Virus record (IMG/VR): IMGVR_UViG_3300032236_001850
Coordinates: 302,392-366,391 of that record
Source: a virus
Length of the DNA stretch: 64,000 nucleotides
Direction: 5' to 3' (one strand)
Position numbers and translations under genes: made by a program. Each line of letters begins with the position of its first letter. Position 1 is the first letter of the stretch. The notes beneath the pieces were generated by a model. The model was not told the DNA's origin and did no database searches. It saw only the letters and a list, made by a program, of their open reading frames with translations. Positions 5,234 to 62,961 of this stretch are shown here, piece after piece.

Positions 5234-5241
5234 GATATATA
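5234..5241 (+). promoter_or_regulatory. GATATATA late-promoter-like element
   Basis: GATATATA lies 27 bases upstream of the ATG at 5261. It is one of nine such copies in front of genes in this window and resembles the T4 late -10 element TATAAATA. It falls inside a longer TTG-initiated reading (5231), which argues that the TTG is not the true start. Confidence 0.6.
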
Positions 5242-5260
5242 CATAAATAAAAATCTAAGA

Positions 5261-5911
5261 ATGACAAGAATAGTTAAGGATTTTGATTCTTTCTACAATG
5301 AAGAACCAATTCATGAAGACTTTGATATAATGGGATTACTTGGTAAAACCATTGGATATTTAGGTGATGGTTTTATTGACACAATAAAGCAGAAATTTGC
5401 AGCTATGTTGATGGAAAAACTTGGAATAAGAGAAAAATCCATAGCTTCTGAGTTTGTGCAACAGGTTGTTTCGAGTATAGACATGAAAGAATGGCCAGGT
5501 ATACTTAGTGGAGAAAACGACAATAAGAAATTCTTTATACCTAAAATTGCAGAAGCGATACAATACACATTAGAAAGAAAGGGATTTGAAGGGATTGCAA
5601 ATTCTATTGGTCTTGAATCCGAGGGATTGATAATGAGAACTTTAATAAATACGATACAGAATAAAGCAACAGGTAAAGCTAAAATAGAAAAATTTCTTTT
5701 TGATCTTTTTGGTGACGAGAATGTTGGTGGAAATATCATATCCTCTCTAGATAGCAAAGATAAACAACAATTTAGTGATGCTCTTTCTAAAGCAGCAAGT
5801 AAAAAAGTAAATTACAAACCAGGATCTTCTAATTCTGATGGTGGTGAATCGTTTATTGGTAATATAATGGGAGGTTTACTAGGCGGTAGCAAAGGAATAG
5901 CAACAGCATAA
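5261..5911 (+). CDS. Putative packaged head protein, unknown function
   Basis: A 216-aa protein. I chose the ATG at 5261 over a TTG at 5231 because the TTG overlaps the GATATATA promoter-like element. The N-terminus MTRIVKDFDSFYNEEP matches the pattern of capsid-targeting leaders (basic start, F-x-x-F, then X-N-E). The body is alpha-helical, with a Gly/Ser-rich C-terminal tail containing small hydrophobic Gly-rich patches (IMGGLLGG) that could contact membrane or protein. It is followed after 15 bases by a 111-aa gene in the same operon. No recognised domain. Confidence 0.75.
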   Translation: MTRIVKDFDSFYNEEPIHEDFDIMGLLGKTIGYLGDGFIDTIKQKFAAMLMEKLGIREKSIASEFVQQVVSSIDMKEWPGILSGENDNKKFFIPKIAEAIQYTLERKGFEGIANSIGLESEGLIMRTLINTIQNKATGKAKIEKFLFDLFGDENVGGNIISSLDSKDKQQFSDALSKAASKKVNYKPGSSNSDGGESFIGNIMGGLLGGSKGIATA

Positions 5912-5926
5912 AATAAAAGATAAGCA

Positions 5927-6262
5927 ATGAATCAAAAAGATGTAAGCAAAAGAGATATATTGGACTTTGAAAAGTTTTTGACAAAGGTTCATGATGACAA
6001 ATATAAACCATTTGCTCCTGTAAATCAAGAAGATAGGGAGGATGCTAATGGTTTATCCAAAATAAAAAGAGAGGCAAGATACGATTTTGTTGGCTATGCT
6101 GATGCAGTATTTGGACATAATTCAAAAATAAATGTACCTGGATATAGAGTTGATGTCGGAGGTAAACCTGGTATGGCAGATGCTGGTGCATTTGGTACTG
6201 CTTTCAATACAAGTGAATCTGAAAACAATGATAGCTTTATTAAGAAACTATCGGATTTCTAA
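5927..6262 (+). CDS. Small hypothetical protein
   Basis: A 111-aa protein with A-rich leader (aaataaaagataagca). It is charged at the N-terminus with a Gly/Ala-rich, apparently loosely structured second half (GGKPGMADAGAFG around residue 80-92). It is the last gene of the short operon starting at 5261 and ends just before a bidirectional terminator. I do not recognise it; the position among putative head-packaged proteins suggests a virion role, which is inference. Confidence 0.7.
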   Translation: MNQKDVSKRDILDFEKFLTKVHDDKYKPFAPVNQEDREDANGLSKIKREARYDFVGYADAVFGHNSKINVPGYRVDVGGKPGMADAGAFGTAFNTSESENNDSFIKKLSDF

Positions 6263-6277
6263 TCGAATGCAATTATA

Positions 6278-6307
6278 AAAAAAAGAGAGCATCTGCTCTC
6301 TTTTTTT
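6278..6307. terminator. Bidirectional terminator between convergent genes
   Basis: A symmetric hairpin with 13-bp arms (A-rich run plus GAGAGC at 6278-6290, GCTCTC plus T run at 6295-6307) and an ATCT loop. The A tract on one side and T tract on the other let it work on both strands. It sits between the plus-strand gene ending at 6262 and the minus-strand gene ending at 6306. Confidence 0.9.
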
Positions 6308-7031
6308 ATGTGATTGTTTCTATAAATTTTTCTTTTGCTAGTTTGTAGATATCAGAATCTTCATCGAAATCCTCATATATTTCTATAACAAAAAGTTCAG
6401 GAGATACGTTTTTTTCTATTGAAAATTCTTCCAGAATCTCGTGGTATATGAATTCATAATTCATCGAGTATCTTGAATTTTTCAAATTTATCCTTTTTAG
6501 AACACATATTTGTTTGTTACCGTGCTCAGTTTTCATTGTAACTGCACCTTGCCAGTAGTATGGTATGATTTTATCCGTTACCATGTTTCTTATGATGAGT
6601 ATACCAGAATTAGCTGGTTCCTTCTTCTCCGCATTGAATTTAGATTGAACCTTAAATATTTTGATCTTAGATTCCTCATCCTTTAGCATATCCAAAAATA
6701 TTTCTGAATATTCATAGAGTGTTTCTAGGGATGATTCTATAATTGATTCGATGGTATCCCTTTTTTCTTTGCTTAGCTTTTTGAAATCGAAATTATTTAT
6801 GTACTCTCTTTCCTCTTCGGTTAGCTGGGAAATTATAGTTTTTCCTATAGTGTTGTTTTTCTTAAATTCGTTAAGAGATTTAACTATCTTGGAAACAGCC
6901 CGTAATATTGGATAACAGTTTTTTGAATTTATATTTTTGCTTATAGATTTTAGGTAATCTAAAAGAACATATTCTTTATGTTCTGTGTCTATTGGTTCCT
7001 TAATAAACCAAATTGTGCTTAAATTTTTCAT
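6306..7031 (-). CDS. Minus-strand hypothetical protein
   Basis: A 241-aa soluble protein, Lys/Glu/Ile-rich with a helical central part (about residues 40-130) and a more beta-like C-terminal third containing Trp/Tyr (YYWQGAV near 158). It is one of only two minus-strand genes in the window, so it is probably not expressed with the virion operons. On its strand, TTGAAA-N17-TATAAT lies about 25 bases before the ATG, fitting recognition by a host-type sigma factor and early expression. Function unknown. Confidence 0.75.
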   Translation of the reverse strand: MKNLSTIWFIKEPIDTEHKEYVLLDYLKSISKNINSKNCYPILRAVSKIVKSLNEFKKNNTIGKTIISQLTEEEREYINNFDFKKLSKEKRDTIESIIESSLETLYEYSEIFLDMLKDEESKIKIFKVQSKFNAEKKEPANSGILIIRNMVTDKIIPYYWQGAVTMKTEHGNKQICVLKRINLKNSRYSMNYEFIYHEILEEFSIEKNVSPELFVIEIYEDFDEDSDIYKLAKEKFIETIT

Positions 7032-7056
7032 CTTTAACTTTTAAAAGTTGGATCCT

Positions 7057-7085
7057 ATTATATATTTACATTCTAATTTTTTCAA
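7057..7085 (-). promoter_or_regulatory. Sigma-70-like promoter for the minus-strand gene
   Basis: Read on the minus strand: TTGAAA (plus coordinates 7080-7085), a 17-base spacer, then TATAAT (7057-7062), upstream of the ATG at 7031. It matches the sigma-70 consensus spacing and boxes closely, but the DNA is very AT-rich, and Bacteroidota primary sigma factors prefer a different -7 element (TAnnTTTG), so use by the host is uncertain. Confidence 0.4.
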
Positions 7086-7089
7086 AATG

Positions 7090-7097
7090 GATATATA
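7090..7097 (+). promoter_or_regulatory. GATATATA late-promoter-like element
   Basis: GATATATA 28 bases upstream of the ATG at 7118, divergent from and almost abutting the putative early promoter on the other strand. It supports 7118 as the true start, since longer readings from 7013 would have to run through it. Confidence 0.6.
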
Positions 7098-7117
7098 CTT
7101 TAAAATATTTTCTAGAG

Positions 7118-7564
7118 ATGAAAAGAATCAACGAGGGAAGAATTTATGATTATTCTGCTTTTACCGATAGTAAAAAACCAACTAATAGCAATGATTATAC
7201 ATTTGGTATAGAATTGGGATATACTGATATAGACATAACCAATAGGCCTGACGAATACGAGGACATATCCGATGCTAAGATATTTATAGATTACTCAGTA
7301 AATTTGATCATTAAGAAAAGTGGAATAGATGCTATTGATATGGTTGTGAACTCAATGGAACTTGATTTTGAAGTTGATGATTATCCTAATGAAACTAAGG
7401 AATTTGATATAGATCTAATACCTGGTAGAACTGTAGATTATAATCAGATAGAGATTGATAAGAACGATATACTTATACCAACCTATCCAAAATCTGTTCA
7501 AATTGATATGAATAAATCAACGGAAGCTAAAAATTTTAAAATAAACGTGGTTTTTGGATCATAA
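7118..7564 (+). CDS. Acidic small protein, possibly head-packaged
   Basis: A 148-aa acidic protein rich in Asp/Glu/Ile with a likely beta structure. The frame is open back to 7013, but the extra 35 residues are hydrophobic and overlap both promoter-like elements and the minus-strand gene start; ATG 7118 gives MKRINEGRIYDYS. The INE-G near the start fits a (L/I)-X-E prohead protease site. It is followed after 11 bases by the 320-aa gene, which also has a targeting-like N-terminus. No known family recognised. Confidence 0.7.
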   Translation: MKRINEGRIYDYSAFTDSKKPTNSNDYTFGIELGYTDIDITNRPDEYEDISDAKIFIDYSVNLIIKKSGIDAIDMVVNSMELDFEVDDYPNETKEFDIDLIPGRTVDYNQIEIDKNDILIPTYPKSVQIDMNKSTEAKNFKINVVFGS

Positions 7565-7575
7565 TAAATAAAAAC

Positions 7576-8538
7576 ATGAGAATTTTAGACTTTAGAAATT
7601 TTATATTAAACGAGGAGGCTTCTCCCATGTATGACGAGATACCAGAAGTAAAATCAATATCTGATGATGGATATGAGATAGAGGCAGAAAGATTTGATGA
7701 TGAAAATCAGGATCCACCATTTGGTAAGGTGTTACTAACAAAGGATTCTCCTAAAAATGTTAGACTTTCCTTTCATAACTATAAAGGTAAAAAAATTAAG
7801 GATTTGTGGATACCTAAGGATCATTGCCAGATTAAGGACGGTAAGGATGATTCGTGTTTGGTGACAATACCTGGTGATAGCAATTGGTTAAATTCTGATG
7901 AGAATAGAAATAAACTTGAGGATTTTATAGAGGGATTATATAATAGTAAGATGAGGGATAAGCTTTATTCCGATGATATAATTGAAACCATAAAAAATGA
8001 CGTGTATCATATAATGGATATGATCGGTATACCTTGTGAGGTTGTAAGTGTTAATAAACTTGATGGTGATAACGAATATGAGGTTGTGTTGGATAATGAT
8101 ATTTCAATAGACGTTAATAAAAAATCAGCAAAAGAGCTTCTTGGAAATTTTAAGATGTACAAGAACAATAGAGAAACATCTCCTTCGGTTGAGATAAAAA
8201 GCAAGGGTGGAAAGCATAATTTTTATTTCTATAACGAAGATTTGCCAAATTTAGAGGATGAATCAGATTTAATAGACGTTAAGAAGAATCATAGATTATA
8301 TTACTTGCTTAAAAAATCATTAGGTGTTGATAATAATGAGGATAGAGAAATTTTTTACAATCATTTTGAGGCGAAATCTAAAAATTTTAACAATGAGAAT
8401 GGCGAAAAACTAAATCCTGAAATGAAAAGAATGAGAATTGAGGACGGTAAAAAGTTAAAAGATCTTAAGAATATTGCAAGTACTTTTAAACCAGAGAATG
8501 AAATAATAAAAATATTTCCAAAAAACTTAGTAAATTAG
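7576..8538 (+). CDS. Putative packaged head protein with targeting-like leader
   Basis: A 320-aa acidic protein behind an A-rich leader (aataaataaaaac). The first residues MRILDFRNFILNEEAS are the clearest capsid-targeting-like sequence in this region: a basic, aromatic amphipathic helix ending ILNE followed by small residues, as in T4 internal proteins cleaved by gp21. The rest has no motif I recognise; it is Lys/Asp-rich and may bind nucleic acid or protein. It is the second gene of the operon begun at 7118 and is closed by a terminator 16 bases downstream. Confidence 0.8.
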   Translation: MRILDFRNFILNEEASPMYDEIPEVKSISDDGYEIEAERFDDENQDPPFGKVLLTKDSPKNVRLSFHNYKGKKIKDLWIPKDHCQIKDGKDDSCLVTIPGDSNWLNSDENRNKLEDFIEGLYNSKMRDKLYSDDIIETIKNDVYHIMDMIGIPCEVVSVNKLDGDNEYEVVLDNDISIDVNKKSAKELLGNFKMYKNNRETSPSVEIKSKGGKHNFYFYNEDLPNLEDESDLIDVKKNHRLYYLLKKSLGVDNNEDREIFYNHFEAKSKNFNNENGEKLNPEMKRMRIEDGKKLKDLKNIASTFKPENEIIKIFPKNLVN

Positions 8539-8553
8539 TAAAAATAACGAAAC

Positions 8554-8598
8554 AAAACTCCATTATGTAATCTACAATGTTTATGTAATGGAGTTTTT
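8554..8598 (+). terminator. Rho-independent terminator after the 320-aa gene
   Basis: A perfect 12-bp stem (AAAACTCCATTA at 8554-8565 with TAATGGAGTTTT at 8586-8597), a 20-base loop and a short T tract. The A tract upstream means it may also act on the opposite strand. No GATATATA element follows before the next gene at 8641, so that gene may rely on read-through or an unrecognised promoter. Confidence 0.8.
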
Positions 8599-8640
8599 GT
8601 ATGTGAAGAACTCGAAAAAGAAAAAAGAAACTCTAAAATA

Positions 8641-9297
8641 ATGATATCAGGTATTAAAAATCTTTTTTCCTCAAAAAATAAAAAACCTAAAAGAATGAAT
8701 TTAGCTGAAATTAAAACTATTGATGAAGTAAAAGCGCTTTATAACAATATGGAATTCCAATGGATCAAGGGTGATGATGTTGGTGCTATTGAATCTTATA
8801 AGAATGTGACATCTGTTGGTGATGATTTTTTCCTTGAGTTTAACAGTGGCAAAAGAATGAATGTGAATCTTGTGGATGAGTTTCTGATGTACTATCCAGC
8901 CCCACCTAAACAGGATCTTGGAATAAAAGCTGAATTTGTTGAGGTCTCTAAACCTTCAAGTGTTACGTCAATAATCTATAATGACACTCCGACTAGAAAT
9001 GAATTCGAAGAATCACCGATATATAAGCTGTTAAAAAAGCAGAAAAAAAATTCTGTTGAGGTTGGAATAAAACTCAAATTAAACCTTCCATCAAAAGAAC
9101 TCTATGGCGTTTTATCAAGTTCATTTGAAGATGCGGAGAAAGAAATAATAGATTTTGTTCTCTCTGGTGTTGATATAGATGATATTAAGGCATCACTTGC
9201 TGATTCGATAAAAAGAACCTATTACGTTTCTGAAGATAAAAAGGAAACAGTGAAACCTGCTAGAGGTCAAGCAAATAAAAAAGAAACAAATGAGTAA
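8641..9297 (+). CDS. Hypothetical protein upstream of Nudix hydrolase
   Basis: A 218-aa protein with a basic N-terminus (SSKNKKPKR), a mixed alpha/beta middle and a basic, disordered C-terminal tail. No catalytic motif or membrane segment is apparent. The last 8 bases overlap the start of the Nudix gene (ATGAGTAA), so the two are probably co-translated. Function unknown; the location just before the baseplate cluster is the only hint. Confidence 0.75.
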   Translation: MISGIKNLFSSKNKKPKRMNLAEIKTIDEVKALYNNMEFQWIKGDDVGAIESYKNVTSVGDDFFLEFNSGKRMNVNLVDEFLMYYPAPPKQDLGIKAEFVEVSKPSSVTSIIYNDTPTRNEFEESPIYKLLKKQKKNSVEVGIKLKLNLPSKELYGVLSSSFEDAEKEIIDFVLSGVDIDDIKASLADSIKRTYYVSEDKKETVKPARGQANKKETNE

Positions 9298-9874
9298 AGA
9301 AAAAATATTACTTGAAACCCCCAAATTTGATGTTGTAGAAAGAGGTGAAAAACCTGGTGTAGTTTCAAGAGTTGAGACTGTTATGATCCTCCCCTTTATA
9401 AGCGACGATCAGGGGCTACCTTTAATGATTGGTGTTCTTAAAGAACAAAATCTTTTCAGAGATGGCGGAAATGCTCAAAGTCTAATAACAGGAACATGTG
9501 ACGAGGAGGATCCTGATTATTTAGCAACAGCAAAAAGGGAGCTTCTTGAGGAATCAGGCTATGATGTACCTGATAATAATAAGTGGTATTTTTTAGGTAC
9601 AGTTTCCGGAAATAAATTTGTTGACAAAGAATACCCATCCTTTGCAGTTGATGTTACAGGAATAGAAAAGGGTAAAGCAGAGGGTGATGGTTCGGAGCAA
9701 GAAAAAAATGCAGTTTTCCATTTCATTCCTGCAAACGATGTCGTAAAAGCCAAGGATATTTTTATACCTGGTCTTTTTCTAAAGCTTTTTAAATTTGTTG
9801 TTGGAATGGATTTATACAACAGAGAAGATTCAGTTTTCGGTAAGGAGAGTGGATTTAATGATGTTGAAATTTAA
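9290..9874 (+). CDS. Nudix hydrolase
   Basis: A 194-aa Nudix-fold protein. The Nudix box lies at residues 68-91, starting GTCDEED and ending RELLEESGY, which supplies the R-E-U-x-E-E-x-G-U metal-binding helix that hydrolyses nucleoside diphosphates linked to another moiety. Compared with G-x5-E-x7-REUxEExGU, the first Glu is replaced by Asp and one residue is inserted. The surrounding order, with several beta strands before the box and an aromatic C-terminal helix, looks like ADP-sugar/coenzyme pyrophosphatases, but the substrate is unknown. Large phages often carry such enzymes for housekeeping of toxic nucleotides, NAD-type signals or RNA caps. It overlaps the upstream gene by 8 bases. Confidence 0.88.
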   Translation: MSKEKILLETPKFDVVERGEKPGVVSRVETVMILPFISDDQGLPLMIGVLKEQNLFRDGGNAQSLITGTCDEEDPDYLATAKRELLEESGYDVPDNNKWYFLGTVSGNKFVDKEYPSFAVDVTGIEKGKAEGDGSEQEKNAVFHFIPANDVVKAKDIFIPGLFLKLFKFVVGMDLYNREDSVFGKESGFNDVEI

Positions 9875-9884
9875 TATGTAATTT

Positions 9885-10175
9885 ATGAGCAACAGAAGAC
9901 AAAGAAGACAAATTTTAAGATCGATGGGTTTATTAAATATATCTAAGAAAGATCCATTTGATAACAAAGCAAAGATAGAGGAGGGTAAAAATAAACACCG
10001 TCTGCATCTTCAGAATGTTAAAAACAACCAAATACAAAAAGAAAATAAAAATGATTCCGAGGATGATTTCTTCATGTATAGACAACAGGATTCGGAATAT
10101 TCTTCGTTCCAATCCATGCTTATGAAAAGAGATTGGGATAGTCTGGAATCTAATGATGCTAATGCAGGAAATTAA
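9885..10175 (+). CDS. Small basic hypothetical protein
   Basis: A 96-aa protein with a strongly basic N-terminus (MSNRRQRRQILR) and a Lys/Asn-rich, probably disordered remainder. The basic start could bind nucleic acid or be a short assembly peptide. Its 3' end overlaps the next gene by 23 bases. No family recognised. Confidence 0.65.
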   Translation: MSNRRQRRQILRSMGLLNISKKDPFDNKAKIEEGKNKHRLHLQNVKNNQIQKENKNDSEDDFFMYRQQDSEYSSFQSMLMKRDWDSLESNDANAGN

Positions 10176-10488
10176 AGTAAATTTTTATTTATCGAAATAT
10201 TCACCTAAAGAGGCCAAGAAAAGATCAACAATTGGTTCAGATTTCTATGTTGTGGATATATCCAAAATAATAAGAGATCTTGGTTATGAACTAGATAATC
10301 TAACTAGAGAATCGGAGTTTGTAATAAACTACACTATTCGAAAGAAAATACTACAAGGAATATATAGTACAAAGTGTGATGGTATACTTGTGTGCTATAA
10401 GAACATAAATCAAGATTTTATAGAAAATCTTGAAAATCTATTAGACGAACACCCAGAAGAAATACAGTATTCCATTCACAATCTTTAA
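10153..10488 (+). CDS. Small alpha/beta hypothetical protein
   Basis: A 111-aa protein. Three in-frame ATGs lie at 10153, 10156 and 10162; the last gives MQEIKVNFYLSKYS and may be the true start, reducing the overlap with the previous gene. The sequence alternates hydrophobic strands and amphipathic helices (KVNFYLS, GILVCYKNI, ENLENLLDEH), suggesting a small folded domain. Thirteen bases separate it from the first large baseplate gene. Function unknown. Confidence 0.7.
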   Translation: MMLMQEIKVNFYLSKYSPKEAKKRSTIGSDFYVVDISKIIRDLGYELDNLTRESEFVINYTIRKKILQGIYSTKCDGILVCYKNINQDFIENLENLLDEHPEEIQYSIHNL

Positions 10489-10500
10489 AAAAAAGATTAG

Positions 10501-12357: not shown

Positions 12358-12368
12358 AATAATTTAAA

Positions 12369-12965
12369 ATGTCAAATTTTCAAATAGATACATTATCAAG
12401 AAATAAAAGTATATTTAATCCGGTACCTTCGAGGGATTCATCCGCATTTGGTATATGGGATCTTACCCGTTCTTCAATAAATTATTTGAGTGGAATGGGG
12501 TTGGATGATTTTTTTGTTGTGACTGAATATTATCAGATGAGACCAGACATAATCGCTGCTATAAAATTCGGTGACCATGGTATGGTTGGATCGCTTCTTA
12601 AATTTAATAGTATAAGTAATCCATTTGCAATAATGGAGGGAAATGTTTTAATGATACCCAATTCAGATTCCATTGAAAATTCTTTTAATACTAAAACTAA
12701 ATTAAGTCAGGCACAAGCACTTTCAGACAATAACACAAACACTGATCAAAACACACAATTTAAAAAAAATCAGGAGAGTAAGAAATTTAAGGTTAGTGAT
12801 GCTAGAAGAAAATTTCTGGAGCAAAAAGTTAAAAATCAACCAAATATTGTGCTTCCTCCTAATGTACTTCAACCTAACGAGAAAGCAACACCTATGAAAA
12901 AAGATGGATTCCTGATTTTTGCACCTAATGCAGGTGGTGGTGGATTTAATAAACCAGTTAATTAA
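12369..12965 (+). CDS. gp53/LysM-like baseplate wedge protein
   Basis: A 198-aa protein. Residues about 50-100 (YYQMRPDIIAAIKFGD, then LLKFNSISNPFAIMEGNVLMIPN) match the pattern of LysM-like domains in baseplate wedge proteins such as T4 gp53: residues that seat the domain (R-P-D-I), a helix, a loop F-N-x-I-x-N-P-F, and the closing G-x-V-L-x-I-P strand. The C-terminal half is Lys/Asn/Gln-rich and probably extended, a linker to neighbours. It lies between a tube-like gene and a gp27-like hub gene, as expected for a baseplate cluster. Binding cell wall is also possible for LysM, but the context favours assembly. Confidence 0.72.
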   Translation: MSNFQIDTLSRNKSIFNPVPSRDSSAFGIWDLTRSSINYLSGMGLDDFFVVTEYYQMRPDIIAAIKFGDHGMVGSLLKFNSISNPFAIMEGNVLMIPNSDSIENSFNTKTKLSQAQALSDNNTNTDQNTQFKKNQESKKFKVSDARRKFLEQKVKNQPNIVLPPNVLQPNEKATPMKKDGFLIFAPNAGGGGFNKPVN

Positions 12966-12967
12966 TA

Positions 12968-14506: not shown

Positions 14507-14521
14507 AAATAAGATAACAGA

Positions 14522-16903: not shown

Positions 16904-16905
16904 TT

Positions 16906-17583: not shown

Positions 17584-17584
17584 C

Positions 17585-19411: not shown

Positions 19412-19443
19412 AATATCCAGCAATTTAAAGGAACTAAAGATGA

Positions 19444-19451
19444 GATATATA
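19444..19451 (+). promoter_or_regulatory. GATATATA late-promoter-like element
   Basis: GATATATA 50 bases before the ATG at 19494, the longest spacing in the set. The intervening leader is AT-rich (ataattaatagtaacg), leaving room for a longer 5' untranslated region on the S1-like mRNA. Confidence 0.5.
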
Positions 19452-19493
19452 GTATAATTAATAGTAACGTATAATCATCTAAAACTAAAAAAA

Positions 19494-22050: not shown

Positions 22051-22064
22051 AATAAAAACTTAAC

Positions 22065-22859: not shown

Positions 22860-22863
22860 TCTC

Positions 22864-22871
22864 GATATATA
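22864..22871 (+). promoter_or_regulatory. GATATATA late-promoter-like element
   Basis: GATATATA 25 bases before the ATG at 22889 for the gp25-like gene. A 14-bp palindrome lies between it and the start (22874-22887). Confidence 0.55.
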
Positions 22872-22873
22872 AG

Positions 22874-22887
22874 GGGAATTAATTCCC
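22874..22887. promoter_or_regulatory. 14-bp palindrome between promoter-like box and gp25-like start
   Basis: GGGAATTAATTCCC, a perfect palindrome, starts 3 bases after GATATATA and ends 1 base before the ATG. It would lie at or near the transcription start, suitable for an operator or a 5' hairpin masking the start codon. Function is inference. Confidence 0.35.
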
Positions 22888-22888
22888 T

Positions 22889-23260: not shown

Positions 23261-23264
23261 TAAA

Positions 23265-24989: not shown

Positions 24990-24994
24990 TAACA

Positions 24995-25525: not shown

Positions 25526-25531
25526 TTTAAA

Positions 25532-32298: not shown

Positions 32299-32306
32299 GA
32301 TATATA
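32299..32306 (+). promoter_or_regulatory. GATATATA late-promoter-like element
   Basis: GATATATA 28 bases before the ATG at 32327; the leader between is gaatataaatcgacag. Confidence 0.6.
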
Positions 32307-39169: not shown

Positions 39170-39177
39170 GATATATA
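39170..39177 (+). promoter_or_regulatory. GATATATA late-promoter-like element
   Basis: GATATATA 37 bases before the ATG at 39207, in the 110-base divergent gap with phoH. The leader is A-rich (cacaaaaaacaattaaaaagaaaa). Confidence 0.6.
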
Positions 39178-46043: not shown

Positions 46044-46063
46044 TAACAAATAATAAATGACAT

Positions 46064-51613: not shown

Positions 51614-51615
51614 TT

Positions 51616-53157
51616 ATGCCGGTAACCAATATAAAATTTATAAATTATAGTGACGGTCAAAATCTAGCAATAGATAAAATAAACCACAATTTTGACGAAA
51701 TTGTAGAAGCCCATGGTGGATCTGTTGGAGAAACTGGACCTAGTGGGGATAGAGGACCAATTGGAAGTAATGGTTTAATTGGACCGACTGGAAATGATGG
51801 TCCAAGGGGAACCAAATGGTTTGTGCAGGGAATTATGCCATCAACAACACCCGGAAATTCTGTGGTTTATGGAGATTATTGGGTTAATAATGGGGATAGT
51901 TTAATTTATCAATTTGGTCCTACTGGATGGAATAGCACAGGATATAGTTTGTCGTCTTCCGGTAATATATTTAATGATGTTACCTCATATTTTACTAATG
52001 GAGGAACAGGAATTTCTGTTAAATTTGATCAGGTTTCACCCGAAAATTATACTTTTATAATTTCGGATAAATCTGCTCAGTCTGGAATAATTAACGAGAA
52101 GCTAGCAAAATTCCTTATTTCCACAGATACCTCCGGAGATCCTTCGGCTCTTCTTGAATTCATGAAAAGTGATTTGATTTTAAGCAACGCTGGAGATTAT
52201 GCATTACATCCAACTTTCTCGTGGGCTACCAGTTTACCAACTGATAACTCGTTGAAGTTTGATGTTCCTGGTGGATCGTTATTAATAGGAGCATCCGGTG
52301 GATTTTCCTCGAATTCACAAAAAATTGATGTCTCTGCAGGTTCTGCTATAGATATAAATTACGGAGCAACTTCTGGATCTGGTATATCTGCAACTGGTGG
52401 AATCAATATCATTTCATCAAATCCAACAAACGGTGTTTTTAATATACTAAGTGATAATTTAAGTATAACTGGTGGACATGCATCCTTTAAAAGTAGTGTA
52501 GAGTTAAACGGAAGTCCAAGTGGTAATTCTCCATCAGTTGAACTCATCATTGGTGGGACATCAGGTTTAAGAACAAGAAGAACAGCAGATAATTTTAACA
52601 CCATATCAAACAGTGTATATAATGTTTCTCTTGAAACACAAGCTGATAAGGAATTCTACATAAACACAAAGGGTAAAATAAGAACTAAAAAACTTAAAAC
52701 AGGTGTGACTTATCAAAGTTATCAGAATTCAGCATTTAGTTCCGGTGGAACAAATTGGTATTTTATATCAAGACCTGGTGGTCCAGTTCAATCTACTGTT
52801 ATTAAAAATGGAAATACTGTTATAGTAACAATAAATGAACCTAACCCAATAGCAAATTTTGGTATTGGTTTGTATAGTGATCCGCTTTATTCTTTATGGG
52901 GTCCTGGATCAATAGACAATGGACAAGCCATTGATATAAGTGTTTACTGTAGTCCAGATTTAAACCAAGGATCCAATACTCTTTTTAAATATATTGGTGT
53001 TGGTACAACTGGTGGTGTGGTTCCCAAAGTAACTTTACCTACTCCAGCATCAGCTGTTGATTTTACTATTGTCAAGGGTGTAACTGGTAGTACCACAACA
53101 GTTTATTATAAAGCTTATACTAGTGCTGGAGGATCTGGAGGATCTTTTACAGTTTGA
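51616..53157 (+). CDS. Collagen-like tail fibre protein 1
   Basis: A 513-aa fibre protein and the first of three adjacent paralogues. Residues 1-36 form a shared anchor with INHNF (22-26); residues 38-65 are Gly-X-Y repeats rich in Pro and Asp (GPSGDRGPIG), a short collagen-like triple helix; then a conserved G-T-K-W and a small GDYWVNN domain (about 65-115). The rest is a beta-rich shaft with repeated Gly/Ser/Thr strands and a C-terminal receptor-binding-type domain. It starts 2 bases after the giant gene's stop, so is co-expressed with it. Collagen-like triplets are common in trimeric phage fibres. Confidence 0.82.
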   Translation: MPVTNIKFINYSDGQNLAIDKINHNFDEIVEAHGGSVGETGPSGDRGPIGSNGLIGPTGNDGPRGTKWFVQGIMPSTTPGNSVVYGDYWVNNGDSLIYQFGPTGWNSTGYSLSSSGNIFNDVTSYFTNGGTGISVKFDQVSPENYTFIISDKSAQSGIINEKLAKFLISTDTSGDPSALLEFMKSDLILSNAGDYALHPTFSWATSLPTDNSLKFDVPGGSLLIGASGGFSSNSQKIDVSAGSAIDINYGATSGSGISATGGINIISSNPTNGVFNILSDNLSITGGHASFKSSVELNGSPSGNSPSVELIIGGTSGLRTRRTADNFNTISNSVYNVSLETQADKEFYINTKGKIRTKKLKTGVTYQSYQNSAFSSGGTNWYFISRPGGPVQSTVIKNGNTVIVTINEPNPIANFGIGLYSDPLYSLWGPGSIDNGQAIDISVYCSPDLNQGSNTLFKYIGVGTTGGVVPKVTLPTPASAVDFTIVKGVTGSTTTVYYKAYTSAGGSGGSFTV

Positions 53158-53163
53158 TATATA
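53156..53163 (+). promoter_or_regulatory. GATATATA late-promoter-like element
   Basis: GATATATA begins on the last two bases of the previous stop codon and lies 32 bases before the ATG at 53188. Confidence 0.6.
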
Positions 53164-53187
53164 GTCTAAGATAATTAAACTGTATAG

Positions 53188-54879: not shown

Positions 54880-54887
54880 TAAGGAAG

Positions 54888-57800
54888 ATGCATTTTAATA
54901 CTAAATACATATTTAAGGGTGATACCGAAAAAGAAATAATTGGAAAAATCAATTATAATTTTGATCAAATACTTTCATTTGCAATAGGTCCCGATGGTCA
55001 TCCTGGTCCAAGAGGAGCAACAGGTATCTTTGGACCTGCTGGTAAAAGAGGTCCGAGTGGGAGCCCTGGAATTAGAGCATCGAAATGGTATAAGCAACCG
55101 ACGGAACCTTCCGATGCACCAAATACTAATGATGTTTGGATAGACAATTCGGTTTCTGATGGAAATATAAAGATATTTAATTATCCTATAACAAATTACC
55201 AATGGCAGAACAGCGGATATTCTTTTTTGAATTCCAAATATTTCCAATCCTATTCATATATCCAAGGACCTGGTGGTGCTACTGATAAATATGTGATAGG
55301 TTTTAAATATCCTGGCGGTATAACAGGTTCAGCTAATACCTCTCTTTTAATAAGTGATTTCAATCTTAATTCTGTAAAATCAAATCCTAATAATTCCAAG
55401 GTTGTCGTATCCACACAAGATCAAATTGATAGGCCCATTATGACTTTTTCTAAAAATGGTGCTATCTCCGATGATGTTCCATCATTCTATTGGAACTCGA
55501 CAGGTAATAATGCTGGATTGAAGTTTGATATTGGCGGTGCTTTTAGTGTAACAACAAATAATGATTTTTCTATAGACAGCGGACTTGCTAGAACCCTTAT
55601 TACATCCAATCTTTCAACATTTAGAAACAATCAGGGTGCATTCAATGTTCACGGTGATGGTGATTTTTTATTTGCTAGTAACATTGGTTTAGGTGTTGGC
55701 GGATTTTTAAGTATAACTACAAAAAATTTACAGGTTGATAATTCTTCTGTAAATCATTATGGCGGTGTAACTATAACATCACCTCTGACATCGACCTATA
55801 TACTTAATTCGAAACCGAGTTCCCCGTCATATCTGAATGGAATATCTGCTAATATAAAAACGTCTGCTGTTATAAGAACCTTTGAATTTGAAGATTATAC
55901 TGGGAATGCCATTATGTACGGTAAACCATCTGGATCTGTTTCTAGTGGAAATCTTGCACAGACCGTGTTTGGCACTAGCGGTGGTTTTACTGGTGGAACT
56001 GGAGGACCTTTTTCTTACCATGTTAGAAAGGTGAAAGAGGTTAGACAATCAACAACTGGATTAAGTGCTAGACAATATCTAACAACCACAACAAACAATC
56101 TAACCGATGTATTGGATATGTCAACTAATACTATATGGGAAAATGACATAATTCTTGCAACACCTACCGCATACAGTAGCGTTTCTAGTTCAAATTTAGG
56201 AAGTTTTAAAGTTGGTGACATAGATTCAAGCTTTAATTATTCATCGGGCTTAGACATTTTTGGGTCAGGATTTAAAAATTCTTTAACTGGAACCGGTGTT
56301 TATGATGCTGTTGTTAATGATGTTTTTAGATTAACAGATGGAAGCGGAAGCACAATATTTGCTGGAAATTTTAAATATTATAATGATCAGCCAGTGAAAA
56401 CGGGATCTTTAACTAATGTATTAGGTCTGGTTAAAGTCAATTCTGATGGTACGATGGATACAACATTCAGAGCCAACATTTCTGCAATTTCTTTAGTTTC
56501 TGTTACCTCCATTAATGGTGCTGTAGTTGATGAGTCTGGTGGTCCTTACGGAAGTGGTCTTATTTATATTTATGGTTGCTTTACTCATACTACAAACAAA
56601 AATGGGATATTGTGTTTAAATTTGGACGGAACACTATATAGTACGTTCAATTCAAATATGGGTATTGGAATAAATTCTGGTTCCTCTATATTCAAAGCTG
56701 GTATCGATCCAACAGGTACTAATTTATTTGCTGTTGGTGATTTTACTTATTATAAAACAACAACAACTTTTAGAAATAAGTTAATGAAGATAAAAATAAA
56801 TGGAGCATCGGATGGATTACTTAATACATCATTTTTAAGTGGATCGACTTCGGTGGGACCTGGATTCGTTGGTTCAAGCAATATTCCCTACTGTTTTGAT
56901 TTTTTGCCAAGTGGTAATATAATTGTTGGAGGATCCTTTAATTCCTTCAATTCATCAACGAGCGGTTCACCATTTACTATTAATTCTGTCATTGAATTGA
57001 ATAGCAGCAACGGTTTAAGAGTAACCACTGGAGGATTTGCTAATATAATTTATTCTACATTTATAGCATCTGATCCTATTGTTTCATCTATTAAATATAA
57101 TAGTTATAATTCCTATATCTATATAGGTGGAAGTTTTTCCAAAATAAATGGGACAGATTACGGAAGAATAGCAAGATTTACCATAACCGGAACAACTTTT
57201 ACCCTCGATTCAACTTTATCCTCAACTACAGGATTTAATGATATTGTTTATGATTTTGCTTTTGATGGTAGTAAAGTTTACGTTGGCGGAAGATTTACTT
57301 CTTATAGAGGAACATTATGTCCCGCTTTTGTTAAAATAAATAATAATGGATCAATAGATCCTACCGCTTCGATATATCACAACATTGTTAGTCCTAAATC
57401 AATTCAGCCAACATTTGAATGGACTGTTGGATTGGTTAAAAAAATGTACCTTAGTATAGTTGATAATGAATTCATGTATGTTGGTGGTTTTTTAAATAGT
57501 GTATTTTCAGCATCAGCTTCGAATAACGGAATTTATATCAAGGTACCATCATCCATAACACAAGATTATTTACCTGTTTATACCGATGGTACTACTACTA
57601 ATTATAGAGTATTTCTTAATGATCCAGGCAATGATGCAAAGTTACACTATATAAAGGGATTGGTATTTGATGCTGGTTTACCGAATGCTGTGACGTCATA
57701 TGTTGATTTTTCACAGGGTGCTACTGGTTGTCAATATGTGGATCTCATGTGGGTTTCTAAAACAAGTACAGCAAATATTGCTAATCCTAGACTTTTTTAT

Positions 57801-58742
57801 AAAAACTGCGAGGGTTTTAGCGGTTATGTTGACTTTGGTTCTAATGGTGTTTATTCTACCGCACCTGCATCATCAAATGGTGGACAGAATGTAAGTGTTA
57901 CCTGGGAATTTAGTAGACAACAAACTGGATCGTGTAACATTTATAAAAATGGAACATCAATTTCAAATCTTCTTATAAATAAAACAACTTCAGGAAATGG
58001 TTCTTTACCATACTCCATAGGAGATAAAATATATTCTAACGTTTCCGCTGGTGGTGCTAGCTCCGGTTATATCGGTGCCTATGCATCATTAAGAATAACG
58101 AAAACTTCATTAAGTACTGGTATAACAACAACTGAATTCACACAAAGCATTACTGCAGATGTTGGTACTGTTAATAATTTCTCCAATCCTGTTACGTTAG
58201 TTGCTGGATATTCTTATTATATAGAATGTGTTGCACAATCTACACCAACAGGTGGAGGTTGTTGTTTTGTTGGTGATACTCTTGTAACCATGTATAATGG
58301 AAGTTTAAAAAATATTTCTAGTGTAATAGCTGGTGATCTTATATTAACATATAATGTTGAAACGGATCAATATGGAAAAGGTACTGTAACGTCAATAGAG
58401 TCACCTATAAAGGACGATATTATAGAATTCATACTATCCAATGGAAATTCAATAAAAGCCACAACTGAGCATCCATTTTGGGTTATAGGAAAGGGTTGGA
58501 GCTCTTATAGTCCTGACAGAACGATGTTTGATCATCAAATGGAAGTTTCTAAATTGTCCATTGGTGATGTACTATTGGACGAAAGTGGAAATGAAATTGA
58601 ATTATTATTTATGAATAATGATGCTCAAGATCTTCAAAGAGTTTATAATATTCTTATGGAAGATGGAGATCACACTTATTATGCAAATGGGATATTGGTT
58701 CATAACAAGCTTCAGTATAACGATGGAAATGGTTTAGTATAG
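54888..58742 (+). CDS. Collagen-like fibre protein 3 with beta-propeller and C-terminal Hint domain
   Basis: A 1284-aa third paralogue: anchor with INYNF (21-25), Gly-X-Y repeats (34-61), then a W-Y-K and VWIDN attachment module. Residues about 460-830 hold repeats such as YIYIGGSFSKINGTDYGRIA and VYVGGRFTSYRG, matching delta-60/DUF5122-type propeller repeats. The C-terminus (1125-1273) is a Hint (intein/hedgehog) domain: CCFVGDTLV start, TTEHPFWV block B, and a final DHTYYANGILVHN. The Asn is followed by Lys, not Cys/Ser/Thr, so splicing is unlikely; N- or C-terminal cleavage is likelier, as in bacterial intein-like domains. An 11-residue tail ends the protein. Confidence 0.87.
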   Translation: MHFNTKYIFKGDTEKEIIGKINYNFDQILSFAIGPDGHPGPRGATGIFGPAGKRGPSGSPGIRASKWYKQPTEPSDAPNTNDVWIDNSVSDGNIKIFNYPITNYQWQNSGYSFLNSKYFQSYSYIQGPGGATDKYVIGFKYPGGITGSANTSLLISDFNLNSVKSNPNNSKVVVSTQDQIDRPIMTFSKNGAISDDVPSFYWNSTGNNAGLKFDIGGAFSVTTNNDFSIDSGLARTLITSNLSTFRNNQGAFNVHGDGDFLFASNIGLGVGGFLSITTKNLQVDNSSVNHYGGVTITSPLTSTYILNSKPSSPSYLNGISANIKTSAVIRTFEFEDYTGNAIMYGKPSGSVSSGNLAQTVFGTSGGFTGGTGGPFSYHVRKVKEVRQSTTGLSARQYLTTTTNNLTDVLDMSTNTIWENDIILATPTAYSSVSSSNLGSFKVGDIDSSFNYSSGLDIFGSGFKNSLTGTGVYDAVVNDVFRLTDGSGSTIFAGNFKYYNDQPVKTGSLTNVLGLVKVNSDGTMDTTFRANISAISLVSVTSINGAVVDESGGPYGSGLIYIYGCFTHTTNKNGILCLNLDGTLYSTFNSNMGIGINSGSSIFKAGIDPTGTNLFAVGDFTYYKTTTTFRNKLMKIKINGASDGLLNTSFLSGSTSVGPGFVGSSNIPYCFDFLPSGNIIVGGSFNSFNSSTSGSPFTINSVIELNSSNGLRVTTGGFANIIYSTFIASDPIVSSIKYNSYNSYIYIGGSFSKINGTDYGRIARFTITGTTFTLDSTLSSTTGFNDIVYDFAFDGSKVYVGGRFTSYRGTLCPAFVKINNNGSIDPTASIYHNIVSPKSIQPTFEWTVGLVKKMYLSIVDNEFMYVGGFLNSVFSASASNNGIYIKVPSSITQDYLPVYTDGTTTNYRVFLNDPGNDAKLHYIKGLVFDAGLPNAVTSYVDFSQGATGCQYVDLMWVSKTSTANIANPRLFYKNCEGFSGYVDFGSNGVYSTAPASSNGGQNVSVTWEFSRQQTGSCNIYKNGTSISNLLINKTTSGNGSLPYSIGDKIYSNVSAGGASSGYIGAYASLRITKTSLSTGITTTEFTQSITADVGTVNNFSNPVTLVAGYSYYIECVAQSTPTGGGCCFVGDTLVTMYNGSLKNISSVIAGDLILTYNVETDQYGKGTVTSIESPIKDDIIEFILSNGNSIKATTEHPFWVIGKGWSSYSPDRTMFDHQMEVSKLSIGDVLLDESGNEIELLFMNNDAQDLQRVYNILMEDGDHTYYANGILVHNKLQYNDGNGLV

Positions 58743-58770
58743 AAACTAAATATCATCAAATAAAAAATGT

Positions 58771-58778
58771 GATATATA
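58771..58778 (+). promoter_or_regulatory. GATATATA late-promoter-like element
   Basis: GATATATA 23 bases before the ATG at 58794, the closest spacing in the set. It starts the membrane/coiled-coil cassette and probably the structural genes after it. Confidence 0.6.
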
Positions 58779-58793
58779 ATAAAATTATAAAGT

Positions 58794-59039
58794 ATGAAAG
58801 ATTTAACAGATCAAGAAAAAGAAAGATTGCTTAGATTATCTAAAAAGTTTATTAAGGTCCACCAGGACATTTTTAAAATAGAGGAATCTATTAAAATTAT
58901 GCAAGAGAGATCATGTAAACTGATTGGAGATCTTGAGAAATGTAGAGATGCAGAAAAAGATTTCATAAAGGATCTATCTCAAAAATATGGTAATGGAACT
59001 TTAGATCCACTTACGCTAACCTGGAAAAAAGAAATATAG
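58794..59039 (+). CDS. Small coiled-coil protein
   Basis: An 81-aa protein, almost entirely a predicted coiled coil (EKERLLRLSKKFIKVHQDIF onward) with two cysteines (HQ...C, GDLEKCRD) and no signal peptide or membrane segment. It abuts the membrane-protein gene with no gap (stop ends at 59039, next ATG at 59040), so translation is coupled. Function unknown. Confidence 0.75.
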   Translation: MKDLTDQEKERLLRLSKKFIKVHQDIFKIEESIKIMQERSCKLIGDLEKCRDAEKDFIKDLSQKYGNGTLDPLTLTWKKEI

Positions 59040-59552
59040 ATGGCAACTCCTAAAAAAGAAACAGTTAAGAAACAGACACCCAAGAAAAGAGCTCCAAGAA
59101 AAGCGACTGTTGTTGAATCAGTAGAGACAAAGTTAACACCCAAATTTGACATCAAAACGATAGTTATAATTGTACTTCTTGTTTTTAGTTTGATTTTTGG
59201 TTTAATGTGGTTCTTTGGTGGAAACGATGCTTCCAAGGAAAGAGTAAAACAACTTGAAAGTGAATTTAAAAAGCTTGAAGAAGATAAAGCTGCAGCTGAT
59301 GCTAAAATTGCAGATTGGCAAAACAAGTATAATGACGCAGATAAAAAGGACAAGGAGCTAGAAACTGAGGTTGTCAAATTGAAATCAGATTCCAAGATAG
59401 CACAGGAAAAGGCTAAAAAATCAAAGGAAGATCTTGATAAAGTTCAAGGCGGGATAACTGAAAATAGAAAGGAAATAGAAAATCTTAAAAATAATCCACC
59501 TACATTGAGCGACGAGCAACTTTTAGAAGCTTTAATCAAAAAAATGAATTAA
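59040..59552 (+). CDS. Membrane-anchored coiled-coil protein, spanin-like topology
   Basis: A 170-aa protein: a basic cytoplasmic N-terminus (residues 1-38, many Lys/Arg), one transmembrane segment (39-60, KTIVIIVLLVFSLIFGLMWF), then a long Lys/Glu-rich coiled coil (64-155) on the outer face. This N-in, C-out layout is that of an inner-membrane spanin, which spans the periplasm during lysis, though the cytoplasmic domain is longer than usual. It is followed after 5 bases by a protein with signal peptide and C-terminal membrane helix, which would be its outer partner in this reading. Tape-measure-assembly or host-membrane roles are alternatives. Confidence 0.72.
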   Translation: MATPKKETVKKQTPKKRAPRKATVVESVETKLTPKFDIKTIVIIVLLVFSLIFGLMWFFGGNDASKERVKQLESEFKKLEEDKAAADAKIADWQNKYNDADKKDKELETEVVKLKSDSKIAQEKAKKSKEDLDKVQGGITENRKEIENLKNNPPTLSDEQLLEALIKKMN

Positions 59553-59557
59553 TAGAA

Positions 59558-60070
59558 ATGAGAAAAATTTTTACATTATTAATGGCGTTAGTTTTGACGT
59601 CGCTATACTCACAAGTAACACCTGAAATAAAATATCCAAAATTTGAGACAGATTCACTTGGGCAAAAGGTTATAGTTATGACAATCCCGCAAGCGATGAA
59701 ACTTAACAATAACTCAGATCTTTTGGAAAAGTTTGAAGCTCAGGATATAAAAATGAAAGAATACGAGACACTTTGTGTCAAAGTTATTTCTGAAAAGGAT
59801 GATGTGATTGCTAAGTTAAACCTAACAATAGGAAAACAAGATGGTCAATTATTAGTTAAGGACGAAAAAATCAAATCCCTCCAAGGTGAAATTTTGGGAT
59901 GGATGGAAAGAAATGGTGTTCTTGAAAAACAATTGGCAAATAGACAGCAGGTAATAGATGAAAAAGATAAGCAATTAAGAAGATTAAAAACTAAGATGGT
60001 TGTCGGAGGAATAGGTGGTGGAGCTGTTATAGTTGGCCTTGTTCTTAAAGCTGTAGGAATCATCCACTAA
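59558..60070 (+). CDS. Signal-peptide coiled-coil protein with C-terminal membrane helix
   Basis: A 170-aa protein: a signal peptide (MRKIFTLLMALVLTSLYSQ, no lipobox Cys), a long coiled coil (about 55-140, KMKEYETLCVKVISEKD onward) and a C-terminal Gly-rich membrane helix (146-168, GGIGGGAVIVGLVLKAVGII). This two-end anchoring would tie the coiled coil across the periplasm, like a unimolecular spanin, but classical ones use a lipoprotein N-terminus, missing here. It is in tandem with the coiled-coil membrane protein upstream. A lysis role is a hypothesis. Confidence 0.7.
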   Translation: MRKIFTLLMALVLTSLYSQVTPEIKYPKFETDSLGQKVIVMTIPQAMKLNNNSDLLEKFEAQDIKMKEYETLCVKVISEKDDVIAKLNLTIGKQDGQLLVKDEKIKSLQGEILGWMERNGVLEKQLANRQQVIDEKDKQLRRLKTKMVVGGIGGGAVIVGLVLKAVGIIH

Positions 60071-60091
60071 AAATATTAAAAAAATATAAAA

Positions 60092-62401
60092 ATGGCATTT
60101 AGCACTTCATCTAAATACGTTCAGATAACTCCATATTTACTTATGGAATATATGTATGCTGATCAACCTCAACCGGAGACACATTTTGTTAATACCGGTT
60201 CTTCGACTGTTGGTTACGATAAATTAGTAAATGGATTTAGATCGGGTGATGTACAGATTTTCAATCCAAATAATGATTATGATATAACGCATAATACAAC
60301 ACAGGATAGTGTTGTTAGGATAAGCGAAAACTCCTTTGTTACGTTAGATTCCAACCTTATCATACCATTCAATGATTATGCTGACGAATTAACTAATACT
60401 GCTAATTTACCAATAGTATTTCCATCAAATCTTTTAGTTGTTTATGATAGCGTTAGGTATCATATTAGAGCTGGATATAATCTTGGAAACATAGATGGTC
60501 TTATAATGTCAATTGAATATACTGATGTAGATAATACACAAGTTCTTGTTTCACAGATACTTATAAAGAAAGGAACAAGCGAAGATTACAATCTAAATCC
60601 AAATCCTGTTACCATTGGTTCAAATATTTATGACAAGTATATTGAGATAAAAATCCCCAACCTTAGGGATATGAATAATAAATACCAAGCTGCTTCGTCT
60701 GTATTTAAACCACAAACTTTAGCTGGACTTATTAGTCATAGTGGATTTGGATTCATATATAATGCTCCAATAAGAATAACTGCATGGCAAATCCAAAGTA
60801 CTGTTGATTATGCAGGTTATGCTAAATATGATTCTTCAAAAATAGCTACTCTTTCTCTCGAACAGGAAGATCAGTTTGGGAACATAGGTGCAACAATAAG
60901 ACCTTCTGACAGAGGTGAATTTTTTGAATTCTATGCAACTGATAATGAGGGATTCATTGAGGATTTTATATTGTTCCAAAATTCTTTGGGTAATGCTTAT
61001 TATATAGGACACCAAATCGAAGTGTTAGAACAGATTGGTGCATCACTTATAAGAACGTCACATTTTGATTCTGTACAAACAACAGCATATGATTCACCAA
61101 ACTACTACAGACCGATAGTTAGGAATGCCGCTGTTGCAGCAAGTTTTACACTTAGATACACAATGACCCTTATTAATAGTGTCGATCAAAGTAGAACCAT
61201 AAGAATATCTTCGTACACTTCAGCCAATCCAGCCGAATGGGGATTGAAAATAAAACCAATTCAGCTTAGTACTTTTCCACAGGTTCAGAAAATATACAAT
61301 AGAATATATTCTCAGCCAACAATAAACATGAACAGTAGTAACCCTGCTCCTAAGGAAATCCTAAAATACACTAATGTTTTTATAAATCAGAATTACGTTA
61401 CAGCGAGCATGGATAATCTTACTTTTACCAACAATTCATTAAGAGTTGATTCAGGTTCTTCCCAAACTGTTGCTATAGGTAGTGGTAAACTTACGATATC
61501 CATATCTCCATTTGACACCTATATGAAATTCAAATTTATAAAAAGTGGACCTTCCGGAGATCCGGTTCCTATAGATCTTACAAGTTCTGGTGAATTCAAT
61601 ATTTCTTTTATAGATCTTAGTGGTAGTAAAATACAAATACCTTCATTAAAGGATAACACCCTTGCAAATCCTGGATTGGGTGAGATTGCTTTTAAAATTG
61701 ACGAATCAGCAGCTGGTAGAATTTTACAAATCAACGACCGAAGATTTTTCATAACAAATGGTGTTTCTATAAATCAAACAAACCTTTCTGCTACAGAAAA
61801 GAGCACAATAACTGTGAATGCTGGAACAACAAATAATGTTTTAGAAAAAAGTATTGAAAGCGTTATAGCAGATAGAAGAGATGCTAATAAAGCTATAAAA
61901 GGTGCAAATAACTATGTTAATACAGCAGCACAGAATAATATATTAACTCCTGTTAACAATTCAAATTCTGTTATATATTGGGGTTATTGGAAAAAGAACG
62001 GAGAGGAAGATTTTGCTACCGGAGCTACTGGGTCTACAAGCTTACCTGTTTCTATGGGAAGCACAGGAGCAACAGCCGCTGCTGTTCCGAACCAAGTCAA
62101 TGCTCCTGCGTCATCAATTAGATCGATAATGCCAGCAACGTCAGGATCAGGTACAGCGGGTATAGGTACGCCAACAGCAGCTTCAACAAATCAAACTCTA
62201 GCTGGATCCGCTTTAATAGCATCATTGAGTGCTGAAATGAACGGTTATAAAGCTATTGGTTGGGCTGATCAAACAGTAATAGATTATTTCCTTACTCCTG
62301 GTAAACCTGGAAGAATAAAATATCCAAATATAACAAAAGCTGATGTTGTTAAAGCTGGTAATGGTATATTAGCGCCTGCATCTTTAAAAAAATTAACTTA
62401 A
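60092..62401 (+). CDS. Large virion structural protein
   Basis: A 769-aa protein behind a leader of aaaatattaaaaaaatataaaa. Most of it is beta-rich (YVQITPYLLMEYMYADQPQP at the start; IYDKYIEIKIPNLRDMNNKYQ near 185-205). Around residues 575-620 it becomes helical (NVLEKSIESVIADRRDANKAI) and the region 640-710 is Ala/Ser/Gly/Thr-rich and flexible, before a small C-terminal domain ending KADVVKAGNGIL. It precedes a tail-tube-like gene by 4 bases. Probably a tail or neck protein, by position. Confidence 0.78.
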   Translation: MAFSTSSKYVQITPYLLMEYMYADQPQPETHFVNTGSSTVGYDKLVNGFRSGDVQIFNPNNDYDITHNTTQDSVVRISENSFVTLDSNLIIPFNDYADELTNTANLPIVFPSNLLVVYDSVRYHIRAGYNLGNIDGLIMSIEYTDVDNTQVLVSQILIKKGTSEDYNLNPNPVTIGSNIYDKYIEIKIPNLRDMNNKYQAASSVFKPQTLAGLISHSGFGFIYNAPIRITAWQIQSTVDYAGYAKYDSSKIATLSLEQEDQFGNIGATIRPSDRGEFFEFYATDNEGFIEDFILFQNSLGNAYYIGHQIEVLEQIGASLIRTSHFDSVQTTAYDSPNYYRPIVRNAAVAASFTLRYTMTLINSVDQSRTIRISSYTSANPAEWGLKIKPIQLSTFPQVQKIYNRIYSQPTINMNSSNPAPKEILKYTNVFINQNYVTASMDNLTFTNNSLRVDSGSSQTVAIGSGKLTISISPFDTYMKFKFIKSGPSGDPVPIDLTSSGEFNISFIDLSGSKIQIPSLKDNTLANPGLGEIAFKIDESAAGRILQINDRRFFITNGVSINQTNLSATEKSTITVNAGTTNNVLEKSIESVIADRRDANKAIKGANNYVNTAAQNNILTPVNNSNSVIYWGYWKKNGEEDFATGATGSTSLPVSMGSTGATAAAVPNQVNAPASSIRSIMPATSGSGTAGIGTPTAASTNQTLAGSALIASLSAEMNGYKAIGWADQTVIDYFLTPGKPGRIKYPNITKADVVKAGNGILAPASLKKLT

Positions 62402-62405
62402 TCCA

Positions 62406-62954
62406 ATGTTATTAAACCCAAAAGGTAATAGTTTTTATTTTGTATTTCCTAAAGGATTTTTCCCTCCTAAAGTTGTTGATAAATATTTGCCTTATATCAA
62501 AAAACAACCTGTGCCCTTTGATAATATTAGTGATTACATGAATAGCACAATTCAGACTATAGGGTTTCCTAATATGACGATAGATTCAGTGGAACAGATT
62601 AGAAATCTCGGTAAGAAAATATCATACAAGAGTTCAACGAACGTTCAAGATTTATTCTCCCACGATTTTAGTATTGGATTTAAGAATGTCGATGGGTTTA
62701 TAAACTATTTCATCATGCTCGATACCATATTACATTTTTTAAATTTTGAAAATCCGGAGTTGAGATTACCAAATTTGCCATTAAGAATAATGGACAATGA
62801 AGGAAATATAGTAACATCCGTAACGTTCAAAGAGGTAATATTAACATCATATTCGGAATTGCAATTGAGTTATTCAGCTAATGCAAATCAATTCACACCA
62901 TTTACTTTAGGTTTCAAATGTAACTACCTTGATATAGTTCTAGAAGCAAAGTAG
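62406..62954 (+). CDS. Tail tube-like protein, gp19-type fold (putative)
   Basis: A 182-aa protein with an N-terminal FPPKVVDKYLPYIKKQPVPF lead and a beta-barrel-type pattern: FKNVDGFINYFIMLDTILHF (helix), LRIMDNEGNIVTSVTFKEVI, and a C-terminal strand pair (SELQLSYSANANQFTPFTLG). The size and the final strands fit a tail-tube subunit of the T4 gp19/gpFII type, whose hexameric rings stack to make the DNA channel, though such barrels are also used in baseplate proteins. It is upstream of a late-type promoter element that overlaps its stop codon. Confidence 0.6.
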   Translation: MLLNPKGNSFYFVFPKGFFPPKVVDKYLPYIKKQPVPFDNISDYMNSTIQTIGFPNMTIDSVEQIRNLGKKISYKSSTNVQDLFSHDFSIGFKNVDGFINYFIMLDTILHFLNFENPELRLPNLPLRIMDNEGNIVTSVTFKEVILTSYSELQLSYSANANQFTPFTLGFKCNYLDIVLEAK

Positions 62955-62961
62955 ATATATA
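62954..62961 (+). promoter_or_regulatory. GATATATA late-promoter-like element
   Basis: GATATATA begins on the last base of the tube-like gene's stop codon and lies 27 bases before the ATG at 62981. Confidence 0.6.

Follow-up and report, generated by a model that had tools for sequence, protein, structure and literature searches.

The window analysed here, a 64,000-nucleotide stretch of virus DNA (positions 302392-366391 of the 434,509-base IMG/VR record IMGVR_UViG_3300032236_001850), carries an eight-letter signal, GATATATA, in front of nine genes. Very probably, GATATATA is a phage late promoter that is read by the host core RNA polymerase together with a phage factor resembling T4 gp55, with transcription starting at an A 12-13 nucleotides (nt) on and with no -35 element. 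The octamer would form the core of that promoter and apparently all of it. A late-promoter interpretation had been put forward in a first-pass annotation of the window; it is supported by the position and strand of the octamer, its conservation at orthologous genes, the A downstream of it, the classes of genes that it precedes and the presence of a gp55-like gene in the phage. GATATATA together with promoter and phage was not found in the literature searched.

The window contains 11 copies of GATATATA, 11/11 on the + strand and none on the - strand. This total is unremarkable (shuffled sequences gave 6.7 +/- 2.7), and the bare count was rejected as evidence because 11 is within reach of the shuffles. 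The placement of the copies, though, is far from chance, as first claimed. The first base of 9/11 copies stands 23-50 nt before an ATG, and these nine fall in the zone 9-60 nt before + strand gene starts that makes up just 3.5% of the window (binomial P ~4e-12); as a control, the 279 other anagrams of the octamer had 52 of their 1301 copies in this zone. By our own ATG-based gene calls intergenic DNA comes to 1050 bases, in agreement with the 1-2 kb estimated previously, and GATATATA ranks first among 8-mers in the 60 nt before starts. The first-pass annotation had located all nine boxes correctly; the single further intragenic copy that it reported, at 63294, is present, but a second one, at 9018, had been overlooked.

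The same enrichment was seen elsewhere in the genome, for which statistics were compiled from stretches covering ~316 kb of the 434.5 kb. When 13 held-out stretches were analyzed, 41 of 67 copies lay in the -60..-5 zone (log10 P = -40) and GATATATA was rank 1 of all 8-mers. The strand-aware comparison of coding and upstream copies suggested alongside the original claim upheld it: over the ~316 kb, 62 of 78 copies are upstream of genes on the coding strand (-60..-3 zone). One-base variants of GATATATA are upstream in just 0-22% of copies, first-base T (4/10, 40%) and A (12/32, 38%) excepted, and GATAAATA is upstream in 1 of 17 copies in this phage's DNA. The same pipeline, applied to T4 as a positive control, returned TATAAATA at rank 1. 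A reversed-pattern control was dropped as not independent, because ATATATAG overlaps GATATATAG. At two places (L001:9027-9038 and L006:17600-17609) copies of GATATATA on the two strands overlap, a possible divergent promoter pair.

The octamer is also conserved. Relatives were fetched via the tail tube and baseplate genes and thinned to 38 and 27 loci; GATATATA was rank 1 in five of six identity bands (~95% to ~50%) and rank 2 in the closest band. The exact box was present at 124/170 orthologues of box genes versus 4/340 orthologues of non-box genes. Of the nine window boxes, five have been retained at orthologous genes across relatives, and three (5234, 7090 and 39170) have no covered orthologues (Table 1).

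Table 1. Copies of the octamer in the window, with distance from the first base to the ATG
Feature	Positions	Strand	Distance and ATG	Orthologues	Context
GATATATA box	5234..5241	+	27 nt, 5261	none in fetched loci	predicted start ~5246-5247
GATATATA box	7090..7097	+	28 nt, 7118	none in fetched loci	
GATATATA box	19444..19451	+	50 nt, 19494	21/21	
GATATATA box	22864..22871	+	25 nt, 22889	26/26	weak baseplate wedge match; next gene, 23265, baseplate wedge subunit
GATATATA box	32299..32306	+	28 nt, 32327	17/20 exact, 19/20 with any first base	
GATATATA box	39170..39177	+	37 nt, 39207	not covered by fetched loci	
GATATATA box	53156..53163	+	32 nt, 53188	21/30 exact, 30/30 NATATATA	overlaps preceding gene's stop; weak tail-fibre match
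GATATATA box	58771..58778	+	23 nt, 58794	2/35 exact, 10/35 NATATATA	
GATATATA box	62954..62961	+	27 nt, 62981	37/38	just 3' of tail tube gene
GATATATA intragenic copy, probably chance	9018..9025	+	272 nt to next start		
GATATATA intragenic copy, probably chance	63294..63301	+			

When more than 16 nt separate box and ATG, an A stands at box+12 in 39/48 cases and at +13 in 37/48, compared with an A frequency of 0.46-0.47 expected at the same distances to ATG. A start at these positions would set the octamer at about -13 to -6, the location known from T4 (PMC2988020). No conserved or informative -35 position was found in 62 boxes of this genome. Distances from box to ATG fall into two main classes, 21-37 nt (most) and 12-14 nt (14/62), and the shorter class predicts, from its geometry, leaderless mRNAs with a 5' end at or within 1-2 bases of the AUG. 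Messages of Flavobacterium johnsoniae are mostly leadered (PMC6847099). Genes behind 12-14 nt boxes (for example L005:3015-3029 and L006:10206-10220) mostly begin with MK or MR followed by a capsid-targeting-like peptide.

Genes behind GATATATA include those for a portal, a prohead protease, endolysins and nucleases, which fits the T4 late promoter, a driver of head and tail genes. The initial impression that nearly all downstream genes are of virion type is correct for the window; genome-wide it must be widened to endolysins, nucleases and many small proteins with capsid-targeting-like N-termini. A MKRIKTFEELFE-like N-terminal peptide was present in 21 of 63 box genes versus 18 of 383 other genes, the P values for these patterns being descriptive, as the search expressions were composed once the genes had been inspected. 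T4 internal proteins, which begin MKTYQEFIAEA, have a known conserved capsid targeting sequence at their start (PMC3012670). Two portal-like genes stand in tandem (L009:12552-14186 and L009:14191-15843), the first of them behind a GATATATA box, and the prohead protease gene (L010:6799-8763) is a 655-codon frame that far exceeds T4 gp21 and in which the protease match lies close to the N terminus.

A second upstream signal, TATATTTG, was recovered from the held-out DNA. It fits the -7 element of the Bacteroidota sigma-ABfr promoter, TANNTTTG (PMC6847099), and precedes genes for DNA ligase, dCMP deaminase, an ATP-dependent protease and a sigma70-like factor; matches to the clamp-loader family are likewise found among these genes, and a gp44-like clamp loader comes next after the ligase gene. 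Judged by motif and gene content, the TATATTTG class is a Bacteroidota sigma-A element placed before replication-type, early-type genes. A Bacteroidota sigma-A promoter was rejected as the identity of GATATATA, which does not fit TANNTTTG and forms a separate class.

A gp55-like sigma factor, which the first-pass annotation had proposed looking for elsewhere in the genome, was found 20 kb before the window as an open reading frame of 119 amino acids (genome 281665-282024; L009:11665-12024). It matches the T4 late sigma family phrog_234 (E 9.6e-16), and its only PDB sequence match is T4 gp55 (E 3.3e-7). An AlphaFold model of a 98%-identical relative (mean pLDDT 83) has 7d7c chain F as its best PDB match (E 4.7e-3). 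The protein spans sigma region 2 and has no counterpart of the C-terminal segment by which T4 gp55 binds the clamp: where T4 gp55 ends ...PSLDFLYEAND, 30 gp55-like sequences end IPFSYITGDDNSYNV or close variants. The record, which may be incomplete, has no match to RNA polymerase beta (PF00562), so the host core enzyme is presumably used for transcription. A promoter for a phiKZ-type phage RNA polymerase was rejected, as the absent PF00562 match gave no sign of a phage-encoded multisubunit enzyme.

We propose that the host core would carry the 119-residue gp55-like sigma-2 protein, possibly aided by an activator replacing the T4 clamp and gp33, and that the pair would recognise and melt the octamer at about -13 to -6. 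RNA would start at an A 12-13 nt after the octamer's first base, with no -35 element, presumably late in infection. Most late messages would then have a leader of ~10-25 nt, and in the 12-14 nt class the transcript would start on or adjoining the AUG.

We compared the octamer with those of other phages. Baseplate wedge and tail tube proteins are among the products of the window's genes, PHROGs gave few matches for single window proteins, and the first 25 kb of the window had zero near DNA matches among phage records. Named phages with relatives of the window's baseplate protein have Prevotella, Tenacibaculum, Chryseobacterium and Flavobacterium as hosts, and further relatives occur in Sphingomonas phage PAU and uncultured 462-735 kb phages. 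When twelve related and control phages were passed through the same pipeline, a NATANATA-form octamer was the first or second upstream 8-mer in 11: TATAAATA in T4 (control) and Tenacibaculum phage pT24, AATAAATA in two Lak genomes, GATAAATA in Flavobacterium phage MaF61, TATACATA in PAU, AATACATA in Tenacibaculum phage PTm1 and AATATATA in four 462-735 kb phages. On these spellings, giant-phage lineages each use their own version of the same box. The late boxes of KVP40, 44RR and S-PM2 are highly similar to that of T4, and that of Aeh1 is closely related with its first two bases differing (PMC2988020). The boxes described here are likewise lineage variants of the T4 octamer, but it is positions 1 and 5 that change by lineage (GATATATA, AATATATA, AATAAATA, TATACATA, AATACATA, GATAAATA).

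Like the T4 late promoter (PMC2988020, PMC7892883), GATATATA is an eight-base TATA box that lies roughly one helical turn upstream of the inferred start, shows no -35 conservation and occurs in a phage (here of 434 kb) that encodes a gp55 homologue. Unlike it, GATATATA carries two base changes (G1 and T5) relative to TATAAATA, includes the 12-14 nt class that predicts leaderless messages and is used alongside Bacteroidota-type early signals. In T4, the sliding clamp activates late transcription by way of gp55 and gp33 (PMC2988020, PMC7892883). The parallel with T4 drawn at the outset extends to the presence of a gp55-like gene; for its sliding-clamp part no support was found, as the factor has no clamp-binding tail and neither gp45 nor gp33 was detected by profile searches.

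Several observations weigh against a gp55-type late promoter. Besides the missing clamp-binding tail, profile searches of this genome gave no match for gp33, a short fast-evolving protein (phrog_254), or for the gp45 sliding clamp (phrog_223, PF02916 and PF00705); the genome does encode a gp44-like clamp loader, and both gp33 and gp45 may exist in forms too divergent for detection. Phage sigma factors and a gp33 orthologue have been reported for 'group 2' jumbo phages, including Lak (Iyer et al., 2021, PMC7824862), in a paper whose keyword-retrieved passages contain neither a promoter motif nor the name gp55; in nine 'group 2' records the gp33 profile gave only two short weak matches, both in Lak-B5. 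The box at 58771 is poorly conserved, the 735-kb phage has no gp55 match despite a strong AATATATA, and Chryseobacterium phage MA9V-2 has a gp55-like gene but no NATANATA octamer of high rank. Finally, two further sigma-like proteins that could read the box are encoded: a sigma70-like protein of 300 amino acids (genome 204386-205288, minus strand; L006:14386-15288) and an ECF-like protein of 222 amino acids (genome 274045-274713; L009:4045-4713).

That one of these two, rather than the gp55-like protein, reads GATATATA seems to us improbable. Their genes lie in operons with TAHHTTTG-type promoters, and the proteins could be intermediate regulators. Both have region 4, which is normally paired with a -35 element, and the box has none. 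LR745206, with a gp55-like gene and a NATANATA octamer, gave no match to the sigma70-like profile, and PTm1 and pT24, likewise with both, gave none to the ECF-like profile; MaF61 is another phage with no sigma70-like match, but one whose gp55 match is weak (E 0.0018). A gp55-like gene is present in 15 of 16 related records (in two weakly), nearly all of which use a NATANATA octamer, and across relatives it is the only one of the three sigma-like genes common to phages without a sigma70-like or without an ECF-like match. The gp55-like protein is favoured as reader for that reason, by elimination rather than by direct test. The presumed use of the host core would also suit a host promoter read by a host sigma factor with no phage factor involved, but we consider this very unlikely: the host-type signal exists separately as TATATTTG, before other genes, and the spelling of the octamer tracks phage lineage. 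It is scarcely credible that the box acts in leaders or translation, or marks the DNA for modification or replication, instead of being a promoter. Its closeness to start codons and the presence of A-rich leaders would suit such a role; the box is, however, nearly absent before operon-internal genes (the 4/340 orthologues above), the A preference follows the box rather than the ATG, and boxes of the 12-14 nt class nearly abut the AUG, which leaves too little room for a usual leader signal.

A wider scenario is a real possibility, albeit one that we lean slightly against. Giant phages of Bacteroidota may use a sigma-2-only factor of ~120-140 amino acids without a clamp tether, re-spelling bases 1 and 5 of NATANATA in each lineage; factor and box would have co-evolved, giving late codes that are incompatible with one another, and a class of leaderless messages would encode packaged proteins. 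A readable late/early code would serve jumbo phages and megaphages with few genetic tools, including Lak and the 635-735 kb phages, and sequence alone could sort genes of unknown function by expression class. How general the coupling of late transcription to the clamp is becomes directly testable with a gp55 family that lacks the clamp-binding tail, and the octamer variants with their paired sigma-2 domains form a natural series for how gp55 reads DNA.

The gp55-like gene itself is preceded by neither GATATATA nor TATATTTG (L146 upstream of 1495, and the same place in L148-L227). At ~20 of 29 gp55-like loci TGAAAT-N17/18-TARAAT, or a close form, was found upstream, mostly behind a terminator-like hairpin; this element may represent a third (middle) class of promoter. 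Few further sites turned up when the 316 kb were searched for the bipartite element, one of them with the same geometry at genome 134688. The gp55-like genes of Lak phages (L240 and L242) contain three in-frame TAG codons, which would fit the reading of TAG as an amino acid in these phages.

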